This document shows, one piece after another, positions 42,972 through 63,105 of a stretch of 64,000 nt of DNA (within the stretch, counting starts at the first letter, position 1; each line of letters opens with the position of its first letter). Under the pieces are notes generated by a model. It was given only the letters and a program-made list of their open reading frames with translations. It was not told the DNA's origin and did no database searches. The position numbers were made by a program, and so were the translations under genes. The stretch is taken from contig NZ_CP113866.1 in NCBI RefSeq assembly GCF_026914305.1, positions 248,001-312,000 on the forward strand. Reading direction: 5' to 3'. Origin of the DNA: Caldicellulosiruptor acetigenus. Its GTDB lineage: Bacteria; Bacillota; Thermoanaerobacteria; Caldicellulosiruptorales; Caldicellulosiruptoraceae.

Positions 42972-43048
42972 CGGGGTGTAGCTCAGCTTGGTAGAGCACG
43001 TGGTTTGGGACCATGGGGCCGGAGGTTCAAGTCCTCTCACCCCGACCA
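42972..43048 (+). tRNA. tRNA-Pro (TGG)
   Basis: Cloverleaf with acceptor CGGGGTG/CACCCCG, discriminator A, encoded CCA, anticodon TGG in GGTTTGGGACC. Confidence 0.95.
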
Positions 43049-43065
43049 TGAGAAGAAAATAGGTA

Positions 43066-43095
43066 TTGACAAAGAAGAGTAGTGTGTGCTAAAAT
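43066..43095 (+). promoter_or_regulatory. Second tRNA promoter, upstream of tRNA-Tyr
   Basis: TTGACA (43066-43071), 18 bases, extended -10 TG-C-TAAAAT (43087-43095). It allows transcription of Tyr-Thr-Lys-Arg apart from tRNA-Pro. Confidence 0.65.
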
Positions 43096-43135
43096 ACAGA
43101 AGCGTCGGTTTTGAAGTTGTCTGGAAGTTAAACAT

Positions 43136-43220
43136 GGAGGGGTACCCAAGTGGTCAAAGGGGGCAGACTGTAAATCTGTTGCCGCAGGCTTCGTTGGTTC
43201 GAATCCAACCCCCTCCACCA
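43136..43220 (+). tRNA. tRNA-Tyr (GTA)
   Basis: 85 bases with long variable arm, acceptor GGAGGGG/CCCCTCC, encoded CCA, anticodon GTA in GACTGTAAATC. Confidence 0.95.
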
Positions 43221-43237
43221 TCTTGAGAAAAAATGGT

Positions 43238-43313
43238 GCTGGCGTAGCTCAATCGGTAGAGCAGCCGACTTGTAATCGGCAGGTTGCGGGTTCGAGTCCC
43301 ATCGCCAGCTCCA
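43238..43313 (+). tRNA. tRNA-Thr (TGT)
   Basis: Acceptor GCTGGCG/CGCCAGC, discriminator T, encoded CCA, anticodon TGT in GACTTGTAATC. Confidence 0.95.
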
Positions 43314-43341
43314 TTTAATTTAATAAAGCTAAATAAGAGGT

Positions 43342-43417
<76 letters not shown>

Positions 43418-43426
43418 TTTAAATGC

Positions 43427-43506
<80 letters not shown>

Positions 43507-58325: not shown

Positions 58326-58350
58326 CAAAAAAAAGAGGGATAATCCCTCT
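58326..58350 (-). terminator. Terminator after the His-rich gene
   Basis: Perfect stem AGAGGGA/TCCCTCT (58334-58350), followed on the reverse strand by eight or more T residues. Confidence 0.85.
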
Positions 58351-58573
58351 ATTTATTTTCTTCACTTTTGGATGGTTTATCCAATGCAACTAATTCTTCG
58401 CTGTGGTGATGTTGATGAATCTGGTGGCCTTTGAAGTCAGATACTTTTTGGGTTTCATTGCTGTGGTGGTGATCATGGCCGTGGCAACCTTTTCCCATCA
58501 TTGCTTTGTGCATGAAAATGTGTGCTAGCAAACACCCACTCATTGCAAGAAGTATAAGCAGTGCTTCTTTCAT
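58349..58573 (-). CDS. Histidine-rich small membrane protein
   Basis: The 74-residue protein has an N-terminal membrane helix with a cysteine (residues 3-21) and 12 histidines, most in two clusters (CHGHDHHH and HQIHQHHH). Such clusters bind Ni, Cu, Zn or Co. It is the last gene of the set with CcdA and a membrane spermidine-synthase-like protein, 29 bases behind the latter. ATG start after GGAGAG. A metal-storage or relay role is inferred only from composition. Confidence 0.75.
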   Translation of the reverse strand: MKEALLILLAMSGCLLAHIFMHKAMMGKGCHGHDHHHSNETQKVSDFKGHQIHQHHHSEELVALDKPSKSEENK

Positions 58574-58602
58574 TACTTATCTCTCCTTTCAATTTTGATT
58601 TT

Positions 58603-60873
58603 TTATTTAGCAATTACTAAATTTTTACTCTGCAAACTTATAAGCCCATATAAAAGAGCTCCTGCAAGCATAGCAATGGTAAATCCAAATTCCATGGAAA
58701 GCATAATTGATAAAACTGAACCCACAACTGACATTGCACCATTGAGTCCCCACATCACAGGAATTATCTTGCTTTTCTTTTTGTTTTCACTTAGTATCTT
58801 TATACCTCTTGGAAATGGCATCCCCATAAAAAAGCCTTGAATCATAACCAGGATGGCTGCAATTAGTATTTTACTTACCAAGCTAAAATCAGAGGTCATT
58901 TTGAATATTAGGTTCAAAGAGAGTATTAGCCCAATGTTTATTACCATGACCAAAATAGCAGGCAAATATATTTTATTTGACAGATTATTAAACGCCTTTG
59001 CATTGCTAAAGTATGCACCTATTCCGCTGCCAATTAAAAGGCCGGCAAGTACATAATTAAAAGCAAGTACTGGATGACCCAAGTATAGAATAAACTTTTG
59101 AATAAGCGGAATCTCAATTAGCATGTAGCCTATTCCTAAGCTGCTAAAATACAAAGAAGGTTTGAACGCTTTTTCTTGAGAAATAATTGGTGTAAACAAT
59201 ATCACGCTTCCCAGGAGTATGAAAAAGAAGATAAATACCAACACAGGTGAAACCCCTTTGCTAAAGTCATAAAAGTATGGCTTGTCGTCGGTTGCAGGCG
59301 TTGCACTGAATGAAAATCCGTTTTCGAACTGTACTAAAGTTAAATGGCCTTCCTTTATATGGTAAAGCGGCCCCGTGTCATTAACATAAGGGATATAAAG
59401 CGGAATAATCTTCCCTTTGTCTGCAGTCTCTTTTAATTTCTTGCTCTCAAGTTGAGAAAAAGGTTTGTTTTTTACAATGATCAATGGATAGTGAATATGT
59501 TCTTTGCCATGCATTAGTTGAACCTCTTTAGCAAAAATAGCCATATATTTTGGAGTATCTTTAATTGCTATACCCTTTTTATTCAGCTGACGCAGAATGG
59601 TTGCTATCAATTTGCTCATATCCTCTTCATCATGAGCTAAAAAGGCAAGTTTACCGTTATCTGTTAAGTGATTCATATAATCCTCAATAGCTTCAACTGT
59701 AAACAGATAGTTTTCTGAGAGTGCATATCCTATGTTTTGCGATGCATTTGTCATAACCAACGATAATAATATCACATCATATTTTTCCTTAGATTTTTTT
59801 ACAAAATTTCTGCCATCTTCCCCATAGATTTTTACTTCTGGTCTGTTATAGATGTCTCCATTAAACTCTTTAAAGTGCCTTACTGCGTCAATGCTTGATG
59901 TGTTTATTTCGACTCCAGTTATTTCTTTGCTATTCCCAGCTAAGGCATAGAGAATATCCCTACCCCCACCAGGACCAATTATCAATGTTTTATGATTGTT
60001 TCCAAAGGAAAAAGGCAAATATTCAATGTCATCTTTGTATTTGCTCAAACTGCTTTTTTTACCATCAAATCTATACATAGGTGCGTTCGCTGTTCCGTCA
60101 ATTGTGACTATCATTTCATCGTTATCACCTTCTACTTTAATAACATCTGTTCGTGAAAATGCATTCCATTTGGTATATACAATCTTAGCTTTTTGGTTTG
60201 ATTTTGCAATACTGCCAAGTGTTTTTGTTTTGTTTGTAATAAATCCGATAAAATTCTGTTCAATTGAATAAACGTACTTGTTTGGGATAAAAAGCCCAAG
60301 TAAGAAAACAGCTAAAACTCCAATACTAAGTAATATTTTCTTTTTAAACTGGGCATTTAGGAGCAGCCAAGCTATGACTGAAATAATACAAATCAAAATC
60401 ACAGTTCTATATATTCCAAGATTGTTTAAAGAAAGTAACACAATTATGCTGCCAAATCCTGAACCTATGAGATCGGCAAAATATAGCTTGTTGCTTATTT
60501 TCCCAAACTGCTCAAATACGGTGGAGAAAAAGTAACCACCTATTATAAAAGGTAATGTAGCCAGAATTAAGTAAATCAATACATTGTTTTGAAACGGCAG
60601 TATATATATAATTCCAAGCGAAAATATGTACGAGATAGAAAGAAGAAAGATGGCTTTATACAGGGAGTGAGTTTTAAAATCTTCACTTTTTTGACGTTGA
60701 TTGTAAGCTATTATTCCACCTATTCCAAGTCCAAATATAGCAAATGATGTAATCAAGAAAGTATAATGATACCAAAATAAGGCAGAGTATATTCGATTTA
60801 ATATAACTTGATATATAAACAATGAAACTGATACTAAGCTTATACTAACCAAAATCACTTTCATTTCCTCCAT
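58603..60873 (-). CDS. Membrane protein with spermidine-synthase-like domain
   Basis: The 756-residue protein has seven or eight N-terminal membrane segments (1-210), a soluble Rossmann domain (about 220-490) with the SAM-type glycine loop LIIGPGGGRDILYAL and an acidic GVEINTSSID, and about six further membrane segments to the end. True aminopropyltransferases have a D-x-x-D-P motif after the fourth strand; here the sequence is DVILLSLVMTNASQ, so spermidine synthesis is doubtful. Start uncertain: ATG 60873, ATG 60864 or GTG 60858, the last best spaced to GGAGG. Co-directional with ccdA. Confidence 0.75.
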   Translation of the reverse strand: MEEMKVILVSISLVSVSLFIYQVILNRIYSALFWYHYTFLITSFAIFGLGIGGIIAYNQRQKSEDFKTHSLYKAIFLLSISYIFSLGIIYILPFQNNVLIYLILATLPFIIGGYFFSTVFEQFGKISNKLYFADLIGSGFGSIIVLLSLNNLGIYRTVILICIISVIAWLLLNAQFKKKILLSIGVLAVFLLGLFIPNKYVYSIEQNFIGFITNKTKTLGSIAKSNQKAKIVYTKWNAFSRTDVIKVEGDNDEMIVTIDGTANAPMYRFDGKKSSLSKYKDDIEYLPFSFGNNHKTLIIGPGGGRDILYALAGNSKEITGVEINTSSIDAVRHFKEFNGDIYNRPEVKIYGEDGRNFVKKSKEKYDVILLSLVMTNASQNIGYALSENYLFTVEAIEDYMNHLTDNGKLAFLAHDEEDMSKLIATILRQLNKKGIAIKDTPKYMAIFAKEVQLMHGKEHIHYPLIIVKNKPFSQLESKKLKETADKGKIIPLYIPYVNDTGPLYHIKEGHLTLVQFENGFSFSATPATDDKPYFYDFSKGVSPVLVFIFFFILLGSVILFTPIISQEKAFKPSLYFSSLGIGYMLIEIPLIQKFILYLGHPVLAFNYVLAGLLIGSGIGAYFSNAKAFNNLSNKIYLPAILVMVINIGLILSLNLIFKMTSDFSLVSKILIAAILVMIQGFFMGMPFPRGIKILSENKKKSKIIPVMWGLNGAMSVVGSVLSIMLSMEFGFTIAMLAGALLYGLISLQSKNLVIAK

Positions 60874-60894
60874 TATTATAATTTTCTTTATTTA

Positions 60895-61626
60895 TTACAT
60901 TCCAAATGGCAATTTATAAGGTAGCAGTCTGCTAAGAATTGCTGTTAAGTCCTGAAGCTTATTTAAAAACATTACAATACCAAGGAAAATGAGACTGATT
61001 CCTGCAACTACTGAGATAGCATTTTGGAATTTCTTTACTCTTTTTATAGCGTTAATTGCGAGGGGGAGATAATAACCCACCAGCAAATATGGTATTGCAA
61101 GACCTAAGGAAAACAAGAACATAATCGTCATACCTACTGAGGCACTTTTGGTTGTTGTTGTGTATATCAACATGGAGTATAAAATTGGCCCAATGCAATG
61201 GGAACATACTATAGCAAAAAACAGACCTATTAAAAAAGTGGTAAGATATCTGGAAGTTGTTTTAATGTTATCTGCACTGTATTTGTTCAAAAACGCAAAG
61301 TTCAAATTTAGCAGACCAATCAGATTCAATCCCATTATTATGGTTATTGCGCCACCTATTTTATTCATTATCTTGGTGTAACCACTTAACCATCTGCCAA
61401 CACTTCCTCCTAAAGCCCCTGCAATTGTAAAAACAAGTGTAAAAGCGGATACAAATATAAATGTATTGATGAGTATAAATTTCCTCATTTTTTTGTGAAG
61501 TTCTATATCCTTCAAATCTCTAATTGAAACACCTGTGATTAGTGAAAAATATACACTTATCATAGGTATTATGCATGGTGAGAAGAAAGATGTTAGGCCT
61601 GCTGCAAAAGGTAGTAAATAAACCAC
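60895..61626 (-). CDS. ccdA: CcdA-type thiol-electron transporter
   Basis: The 243-residue protein has six membrane segments and the CcdA cysteine pair: FFSPCIIPMI (Cys18) and CSHCIGPIL (Cys144, with a further Cys141). CcdA carries electrons from cytoplasmic thioredoxin to extracytoplasmic thiol proteins. GTG start at 61626, eight bases after GGAGGG. No cytochrome c maturation genes are nearby, so it probably serves another thiol or metal protein of this cassette. Confidence 0.9.
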   Translation of the reverse strand: MVYLLPFAAGLTSFFSPCIIPMISVYFSLITGVSIRDLKDIELHKKMRKFILINTFIFVSAFTLVFTIAGALGGSVGRWLSGYTKIMNKIGGAITIIMGLNLIGLLNLNFAFLNKYSADNIKTTSRYLTTFLIGLFFAIVCSHCIGPILYSMLIYTTTTKSASVGMTIMFLFSLGLAIPYLLVGYYLPLAINAIKRVKKFQNAISVVAGISLIFLGIVMFLNKLQDLTAILSRLLPYKLPFGM

Positions 61627-61639
61627 TTCGTGGACCCTC

Positions 61640-62176
61640 CTAATTTAAAAACTTTTTATCCCACCTATAAATTCTCGATTTGACCCCACCAATATTTTGC
61701 AACTCTAATTGAATATATTTGGTTTTAGGGGTAATAAGACTTTTACCGTTTATTTTTTTTGGTATTTTGATAAATGCCATCACATGATGGCCTGAACCTT
61801 CAATCCACCATTTTGCATTATTGACTTTTATACCTTCACTTGTGCTAAACAATACCTTCCCATTAAAATTGAGTGTAGACAAATCAATCTGATGATTGTC
61901 CAAAAACACCTCAAACACCAGATTATCTTTGTCATCTTTTATAGGGTTTAGATACCTCACTCCAATGGTGATGAAGCCTTCACTATTTATTATCAGAGGG
62001 TCCGGGAAATTGTTTTTGGAACTTGTACTTTGTTTTGAATCCTGCCGATAAATGGTTTTGGTCTGCGTATTACTTTGTTTCTTTTGTTGGGAGATTATAG
62101 CCTCAACATACAACGAAGATACTACAAATGCAAAAAGTACAACAATCACAATTATTCTTTTTGTCTTCTTGCTCAT
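61640..62176 (-). CDS. Exported GHH-motif protein, partner of CcdA
   Basis: The 178-residue protein has an N-terminal signal or anchor (about 8-28), a Ser/Thr/Gln linker and a C-terminal beta domain (about 70-178): VFEVFLDNHQIDL ... WWIEGSGHHVMAF ... QLELQNIGG...YRW. I recognise this GHH pattern from uncharacterised secreted domains, not from a functional family. It has no cysteine, so it is not itself a thiol carrier. Start ATG 62176 after AAAGGGGG; 13 bases separate it from ccdA. Confidence 0.72.
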   Translation of the reverse strand: MSKKTKRIIVIVVLFAFVVSSLYVEAIISQQKKQSNTQTKTIYRQDSKQSTSSKNNFPDPLIINSEGFITIGVRYLNPIKDDKDNLVFEVFLDNHQIDLSTLNFNGKVLFSTSEGIKVNNAKWWIEGSGHHVMAFIKIPKKINGKSLITPKTKYIQLELQNIGGVKSRIYRWDKKFLN

Positions 62177-62197
62177 CAAAACATTCCCCCTTTGCAT

Positions 62198-62481
62198 TCT
62201 AACTTAGGATCAAAGAACATTTTTAAAGAGACAACTTTTCTCATTAAATTTAAAGTAAACCTATTTATTTACTCGGAATTATTATATAAATTATTTTATC
62301 AGAGGTGATTTAAAAGTCAATTGACTTAACAGATTTTTTACAAATTCTTTGCAATTTATTTACAGCTTTAGCTGAAGGAATATTGAACTTAAATGTTTGT
62401 AAAGTGGTAAAATAATTTAAGGAATAATTTCAGCAGCTTGAAAAGAATGGTAAACATAGTGAAAGGAAAGGAGAGAATATT
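62198..62481. promoter_or_regulatory. Divergent intergenic region with methyltransferase promoter
   Basis: Forward: TTGAAC (62383-62388), 19 bases, extended -10 TG-G-TAAAAT (62405-62413). Reverse: a TATAAT (complement of 62281-62286) without a good -35 is a weak candidate for the ccdA set. Nothing else is recognised. Confidence 0.5.
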
Positions 62482-63105
62482 ATGAGGGATAAAACAGAGA
62501 TAATCAGGAAAAGATATGATAGAGCTGCTAAATACTATGATGCAGTTGAAAATATGATGGAGAAAAAATGGTTTTCCCGGTGGAGGAAGTTATTATTTAG
62601 CTTTGTCAAGGGACCTAAGGTTTTAGAAGTAGGTGTTGGAACAGGTAAAAATATGCCTTACTATAGTCAAGATTGGGAGATAGTTGCAATAGATTTTAGT
62701 CCAAAGATGCTTGAGATAGCAAAAGAAAGATCTGCAAAATTAAACTTGCAAGTAGACTTAAGACTTATGGATGTTCAGCATTTGGAATTTAGTGATAACT
62801 CTTTTGATACAGTTGTGACTGCCTGTGTATTTTGTTCGGTGCCAGATCCAATTTTGGGGTTGAAAGAAATTCGTAGGGTATTAAAAGATGATGGAGTGCT
62901 GGTAATGCTTGAACATGTTCGAAGCAAAAAAGAGCCAATAGGCAAAATAATGGATATATTAAACCCCTTGGTTGTTGGCATTTATGGAGCTAATATAAAT
63001 CGCAATACAGTGGAGAATGTTAAAAAAGCTGGGTTTGAAATAGTTGAGGAAAAGGACTTGCTATCTGATATTGTAAAACTGATTATTGCAAAGCCTATAA
63101 AATAA
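62482..63105 (+). CDS. Class I SAM-dependent methyltransferase (UbiE-like)
   Basis: The 207-residue protein has the SAM loop VLEVGVGTGKNMPYY (about 47-61), acidic AIDFSPKMLE, and motif III/post motifs DNSFDTVVTACVFCSVPDP and VLKDDGVLVMLEHVRS. It resembles UbiE/PhcM-type enzymes acting on lipids, quinones or metal(loid)s; no quinone pathway gene is near. ATG start after AAAGGAG. Divergent from the ccdA cassette. The cysteine in CVFC is notable but not diagnostic. Confidence 0.85.
   Translation: MRDKTEIIRKRYDRAAKYYDAVENMMEKKWFSRWRKLLFSFVKGPKVLEVGVGTGKNMPYYSQDWEIVAIDFSPKMLEIAKERSAKLNLQVDLRLMDVQHLEFSDNSFDTVVTACVFCSVPDPILGLKEIRRVLKDDGVLVMLEHVRSKKEPIGKIMDILNPLVVGIYGANINRNTVENVKKAGFEIVEEKDLLSDIVKLIIAKPIK

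Follow-up and report, generated by a model that had tools for sequence, protein, structure and literature searches.

Genes at the locus

The window analysed here is a stretch of 64,000 nucleotides of the heat-loving bacterium Caldicellulosiruptor acetigenus, corresponding to positions 248001-312000 of a genome made up of a single 2.74 Mb contig. It contains four minus-strand open reading frames in the order GHH protein, CcdA, SpeE-like membrane protein and His-rich peptide, with intergenic gaps of 13, 21 and 29 bp, divergent from a gene for a class I S-adenosylmethionine (SAM) methyltransferase. This tight cassette, which the original prediction had described in the same arrangement, is considered here to be an accessory Cu+/Ag+ stress module that acts at the external face of the cytoplasmic membrane, with a probability of about 0.6. 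Its genes and sites, in window coordinates, are as follows.

61640-62176 (a longer open reading frame reaches 62197), minus strand: GHH protein, with a signal or anchor segment and a predicted exported immunoglobulin (Ig)-like beta-sandwich
60895-61626, minus strand: CcdA/DsbD_TM thiol-electron transporter, 243 amino acids, GTG start
58603-60873, minus strand: SpeE-like membrane protein, 756 amino acids, apparently of the major facilitator superfamily (MFS) type, with 7+7 predicted transmembrane (TM) segments and an inserted SpeE-like domain
58349-58573, minus strand: His-rich peptide, 74 amino acids with 12 His, membrane-anchored through one TM segment
62482-63105, plus strand: class I SAM methyltransferase, 207 amino acids, divergent from the cassette
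62337-62364, plus strand: three direct repeats TTTACA-N5-TTTGCA-N5-TTTACA with an 11-bp period, a candidate OmpR-type response-regulator box
62320-62293, minus strand: promoter-like site of the cassette, sigma-A-like TTGACT-16-TAAAAT, which follows directly on the repeat box and is conserved in the genus comparison
58350-58334, minus strand: terminator-like hairpin, AGAGGGATTATCCCTCT, with TTTTTTT after it; the His-peptide gene overlaps this site at its end
58300-58272, minus strand: a promoter-like consensus match that would serve the amylase gene downstream separately

The likely start codon of the GHH protein is an internal ATG at 62176, since it is preceded by a strong ribosome-binding sequence (AAAGGGGGAATGTTTTG) and is where the relatives start; residue numbers nevertheless count from the ATG further upstream, at 62197. 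The promoter-like site before the first gene and the hairpin with its T-run at the last gene fit a single transcript, promoter-type consensus matches being equally numerous in shuffled sequence and thus weak taken alone. Six further genomes of the genus have a recognisable cassette, which in two of them is broken by stops or an internal deletion, and it is found with variations in other genera. The gene order is therefore not a matter of chance.

The GHH family

No Pfam or NCBIfam model matches the GHH protein above its cut-off. A profile search of 398 genomes sampled from the phylum identified relatives in 54, representing 41 of 266 genera and 31 families, and one further relative is encoded on a plasmid of Fusobacteria, beside genes for a CsoR-family regulator, CopA, Lgt and a methyltransferase. 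Across 36 aligned proteins, no residues are invariant except three His and one Trp. The protein of the window has no Cys and exactly three His, which are the invariant His102, His137 and His138. A lipoprotein-type Cys closes the signal in many relatives, and this lipobox and the presence of an Lgt paralogue do not track each other as judged by eye. At five loci the GHH domain is fused to a beta-propeller of the YncE/YVTN type (L094, L096, L078, L112 and L115), the GHH-like domain being C-terminal in L115.

The predicted structure is an Ig-like beta sandwich, with a predicted local distance difference test (pLDDT) score above 90 for most of residues 71-185. In an Ig topology the end of strand B neighbours the start of strand E, so that His102, at the end of strand B, would adjoin the start of strand E with His138, and the three His can plausibly meet. 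The best matches among solved folds are Helicobacter pylori CrdA in the apo form (9ll2_A, Z 9.2, root-mean-square deviation (rmsd) 3.1 over 100 residues) and in the Ag-bound form (9ll4, Z 9.0), against an antibody Ig background of Z about 7.8. Neither sequence nor profile searches found a link to any PDB chain.

Genes around GHH in other genera

The original prediction had called for a survey of whether the families occur together, and rare co-occurrence was not what the 41 genera revealed. Within 7 kb of the GHH gene, with counts reduced to these genera (31 families), an Lgt paralogue is found in 17, a Cu-type P-type ATPase in 16, CcdA in 15 (on the same strand and immediately adjacent in 12), a SpeE-like membrane protein in 13, a methyltransferase in 12 and YHS proteins in 7. 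By our own estimate, chance co-location is about 1% for one to three such genes per 3 Mb genome. At an assumed chance of 3%, binomial values range from 2e-9 to 1e-15 for the ATPase, Lgt, CcdA, the SpeE-like protein and the methyltransferase, and reach 2e-4 for YHS, all being indicative because the genera are not fully independent. Two-component genes, which lie nearby in 12-13 genera, were left out of this calculation because they are common.

The neighbouring ATPases score higher with copper than with cadmium models, and the two that were checked are both above the cut-off of the copper-translocating model TIGR01511. For the CsoR-family neighbours the best-scoring model is that of the copper repressor RicR, although they stay under its cut-off. 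Small DUF2933 and ICMT-like membrane proteins also recur beside GHH; in marine bacteria, members of both families are found together with CopA and a cupredoxin on copper islands (PMC8478169). Genes of the cysteine synthase or cystathionine type adjoin GHH islands of several families (L080-L084, L091, L097, L103 and L104) and hint at thiol supply, and in one related genus a DF-family (seleno)protein adjoins the copper ATPase (L034:3350-3664).

CcdA, the His-rich peptide and the methyltransferase

CcdA is a clear DsbD_TM member (PF02683, 1.4e-20, 74 bits against a cut-off of 27.1). Its Cys18, in an SPC motif of TM1, is kept in 97% of 30 relatives and Cys144 in 100%, the latter forming with Cys141 the motif CSHCIGP in TM4. 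The His-rich peptide has no Pfam or NCBIfam model above cut-off. A short peptide is found at 16 loci, mostly as one membrane segment with GGCCGGH or a near variant and a His-rich stretch, and relatives are fused to a CopZ-type copper chaperone domain (L077, L106) or to a YHS domain (L034, L080, L082). Judged by its layout, in which one TM segment is followed by GKGCHGHDHHH...HQIHQHHH (with Cys14 and Cys30), the peptide of the window belongs to this membrane-anchored GGCCGGH group, with GKGCHGHDHHH at the corresponding place. The methyltransferase matches Methyltransf_11 (3e-24), its closest PDB sequence being a phospholipid N-methyltransferase, and it behaves as part of the cassette system.

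A predicted SpeE fold in an MFS-like protein

The original prediction had placed a SpeE-like domain inside a multi-pass membrane protein, which holds, with the additions that the catalytic loop is lost and that the soluble domain is predicted to lie outside. Pfam Spermine_synth matches weakly but over its cut-off (1.3e-9), and the speE equivalog scores 37.6 bits against a cut-off of 249.55. The spermidine synthase fold itself, an N-terminal beta domain plus a Rossmann domain, is well matched in the middle part (model residues about 217-540), which aligns with 3anx_A at Z 21.2 (rmsd 3.4 over 255 residues). Spermidine synthase binds and activates its amine through the segments GGDGG and DSTDP. 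In the window protein and its homologues (14 compared, the others 31-83% identical to it) these are replaced by GPGGG-type and LSLVMT-type sequences, the latter around an invariant VMT, and the catalytic Asp loop is gone, while GPGGG, VEIN-type and GEDG-type motifs are common to all 14.

Seven hydrophobic helices precede the SpeE-like domain and seven follow it, and the membrane part superposes loosely on the MFS protein SV2A (9okg), at Z 29.0 over 362 residues but with an rmsd of 17.9. The protein looks like a 14-helix MFS-type protein with a SpeE domain devoid of the catalytic Asp loop. Since positive residues average 19.3 on the predicted inside and 4.8 on the outside of these proteins, the domain probably faces the cell exterior. 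SAM should be absent there, and a role as a binding or scaffold module is favoured because a SAM enzyme outside the cell would lack its substrate. Several relatives from named genomes adjoin genes of the DUF2933, ICMT, Lgt or CopA type.

Proposed regulation and observed loss of the cassette

The repeat box in the divergent promoter is kept across the genus, and a second genus has TTTACA-N5-TTTACA-N5-TTTACA. Genome-wide, the perfect triple repeat occurs only in the cassette promoter and at C1:1103549. This second copy, TTTGCA-N5-TTTACA-N5-TTTGCA (C1:1103538-1103576, L144:5539-5577), is apparently intergenic and upstream of a 549-amino-acid gene. Allowing up to two mismatches, the genome has 14 sites, compared with one for a reversed control pattern, most of the weaker ones being intragenic. 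One weaker site, whose two-repeat core is conserved across the genus, has on one side a response regulator/kinase pair of the OmpR type, 4 kb from the cassette (regulator gene at C1:315126-315791), and on the other a divergent gene for an exported DUF2680 protein (C1:314420-314974, L041:8421-8975), outside the window. The C-terminal tail of this protein is rich in Met, Gly and His (GGMMGFGHGSGMMGLGHSNMMG), making it a candidate for an extra copper-binding protein. In one species an exact 11-bp duplication between a DUF2680-type gene and the response regulator gene gives a third TTTACA repeat (L024, genome G006), so that the candidate box has a naturally occurring variant.

Because the repeat motif is common to the cassette promoter and the two-component promoter, it suggests that both form one regulon, presumably through binding of the regulator. 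The original prediction, in which the methyltransferase was noted as divergent from the four genes, is in this respect widened: the methyltransferase joins the system, and the regulator is likely the two-component system encoded outside the window. In a comparison of 12 genomes, the kinase gene and the SpeE-like gene or its remnant are present or absent together. In G002 (L150) and G008 (L151), the His-peptide gene is kept and the C-terminal part of the SpeE-like gene is joined to a broken kinase gene, the intervening DNA having been deleted; the joint loss is discounted, because a single contiguous deletion explains both genomes. G011, in which the GHH, SpeE-like and kinase genes carry stops at once, is the only genome that hints at a linked function. 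Elsewhere in the window, five tRNA genes (for Pro, Tyr, Thr, Lys and Arg) form an array on the plus strand at 42972-43503.

A proposed function in copper handling

Copper (or silver) is the most likely metal, because Cu+ P-type ATPases are among the genes enriched near GHH and the GGCCGGH group has CopZ and YHS fusions. In the proposed module, the two-component system would sense metal in the envelope, and its OmpR-type regulator would bind the TTTACA repeats to induce the cassette and the methyltransferase, as the shared motifs suggest. The exported GHH domain may bind copper through its three invariant His, a role consistent with their conservation and the predicted fold. CcdA, to judge from its family and conserved Cys, would carry cytoplasmic reducing power outward, so that Cys ligands in the envelope stay reduced and copper remains in the Cu(I) state. 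The TM-anchored His/Cys peptide would buffer copper at the membrane, as the CopZ and YHS fusions of its relatives suggest. The MFS/SpeE-like protein might move copper, or a copper ligand, across the membrane with its altered external SpeE domain as a binding module, to which the predicted fold and topology and the lost residues point. CopA, encoded elsewhere in the genome, would perform ATP-driven export, and the cassette would be coupled to CopA and CsoR-family genes that are not adjacent to it. The undescribed extracytoplasmic metal or redox system of the original prediction is well supported by the neighbourhoods, the fusions and the fold, and is narrowed to copper (or silver); its redox and metal action we infer.

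Several observations weigh against this assignment. CrdA, at Z 9.2, stands only modestly over the Ig background, and a DUF4426 protein (3uc2, Z 8.8) comes near its score. A profile of the 36 GHH proteins retrieved no CrdA or CopC chain up to an E-value of 10, and CrdA binds copper via Met, without His (PMC9182242); on all these points, GHH and CrdA would share at most a common fold, the metal site being different. About 10 of the 41 genera, or about a quarter, have no core neighbour within 7 kb. The strongest CopA match of this genome (C1:503958) and its CsoR-family genes (C1:1013949 and 1134885) are not adjacent to the cassette, so that the pairing with CopA and a CsoR/MerR sensor that marks a copper island is absent here, while CopA adjacency holds for the 16 genera counted above; the CopA locus of this genome also has no clear repeat box. 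The neighbouring P1B ATPases could also serve silver or mercury. The cassette might then serve another soft metal, chiefly mercury, with the copper link being a family resemblance only, since strict specificity for copper is not a property of P1B ATPases, CcdA or YHS domains, and the islands hold the DF-family (seleno)protein as well as HMA domains for which MerP/MerTP models give scores too. This is unlikely in view of the copper preference of the ATPase and CsoR-family matches and of the closest GHH fold match, which is a copper protein; the neighbour clusters that recur included no recognisable mercuric reductase, although no search was aimed at one.

The prominence of CcdA, the closest partner of GHH and its direct neighbour in 12 genera, could also be taken to mean that the cassette is a CcdA-driven system for thiol redox or protein maturation in the envelope, related to cytochromes or lipoproteins, to which metals are incidental. 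The recurrent Lgt paralogues and the few loci with CcmF or cysteine-synthesis genes agree with this, but a GHH protein that has no Cys and whose sole His are the invariant ones does not, and the associations with Cu-ATPase, CopZ fusions, YHS and CsoR are left unexplained, which makes such a system rather improbable. A fused synthase and exporter is a further alternative, in which the SpeE-like domain transfers a group from SAM, the methyltransferase finishes a metal ligand and the MFS part exports it. The conserved GPGGG, VEIN and GEDG motifs, the MFS-like membrane part and the recurrence of the methyltransferase near GHH would suit this scheme, yet the replacement of GGDGG and DSTDP in the homologues and the predicted location of the domain, away from SAM, make it rather improbable too.

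Comparison with known systems

CrdA is under two-component control. With CopC/PcoC, it resembles the GHH protein as an exported Ig-like beta-sandwich in a copper context; the site of CrdA is Met-rich, whereas GHH has three invariant His. The copper islands of Alteromonas (merR, copA, cupredoxin, DUF2933 and ICMT-like; PMC8478169) likewise cluster a Cu-ATPase, DUF2933-type peptides, membrane methyltransferases and an exported copper-binding beta-sandwich, but the islands in Bacillota carry the GHH domain together with CcdA, an Lgt paralogue and the MFS/SpeE-like protein. In addition, CopA of this genome is not adjacent, and the cassette has no DUF2933 or ICMT gene. The suppressor of copper sensitivity (Scs) system, ScsABCD, also ties a membrane electron carrier of the DsbD/CcdA family to copper tolerance. 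It works with thioredoxin-fold partners such as ScsC (PMC8900818), and no thioredoxin-fold gene of this kind is present among the open reading frames of the cassette. Fused MFS/spermidine synthase proteins (NF037959, PRK03612) combine membrane helices and a SpeE fold in one chain as well; the SpeE-like protein, however, is far below their cut-offs (12.8 bits against 40 for NF037959), has 7+7 helices and has lost the catalytic loop. The cassette works like the CrdA/CopC systems, Scs and the CopA islands but is a member of none. The literature searched, from which most subscription journals were missing, yielded no paper describing this set of genes.

Collectively, the system is rated as a probable part of copper homeostasis, built partly from undescribed families. 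It is tentatively possible that the three-His sandwich, CcdA, the CCGGH-type peptide and the MFS protein with its extracellular, non-catalytic SpeE domain constitute an undescribed copper defence, that is, a dedicated unit for Cu(I) reduction and sequestration, widespread in Bacillota and coupled to CopA. With GHH, a family that lacks a Pfam or NCBIfam model and yet is encoded by roughly one in seven of the genomes sampled from the phylum now has a testable function, and the SpeE fold is seen without its known catalytic residues in a domain that probably faces outward. The extracellular side of copper homeostasis is known mainly from Gram-negative bacteria. The cassette points to a way in which anaerobic Gram-positive bacteria may deal with extracellular copper.

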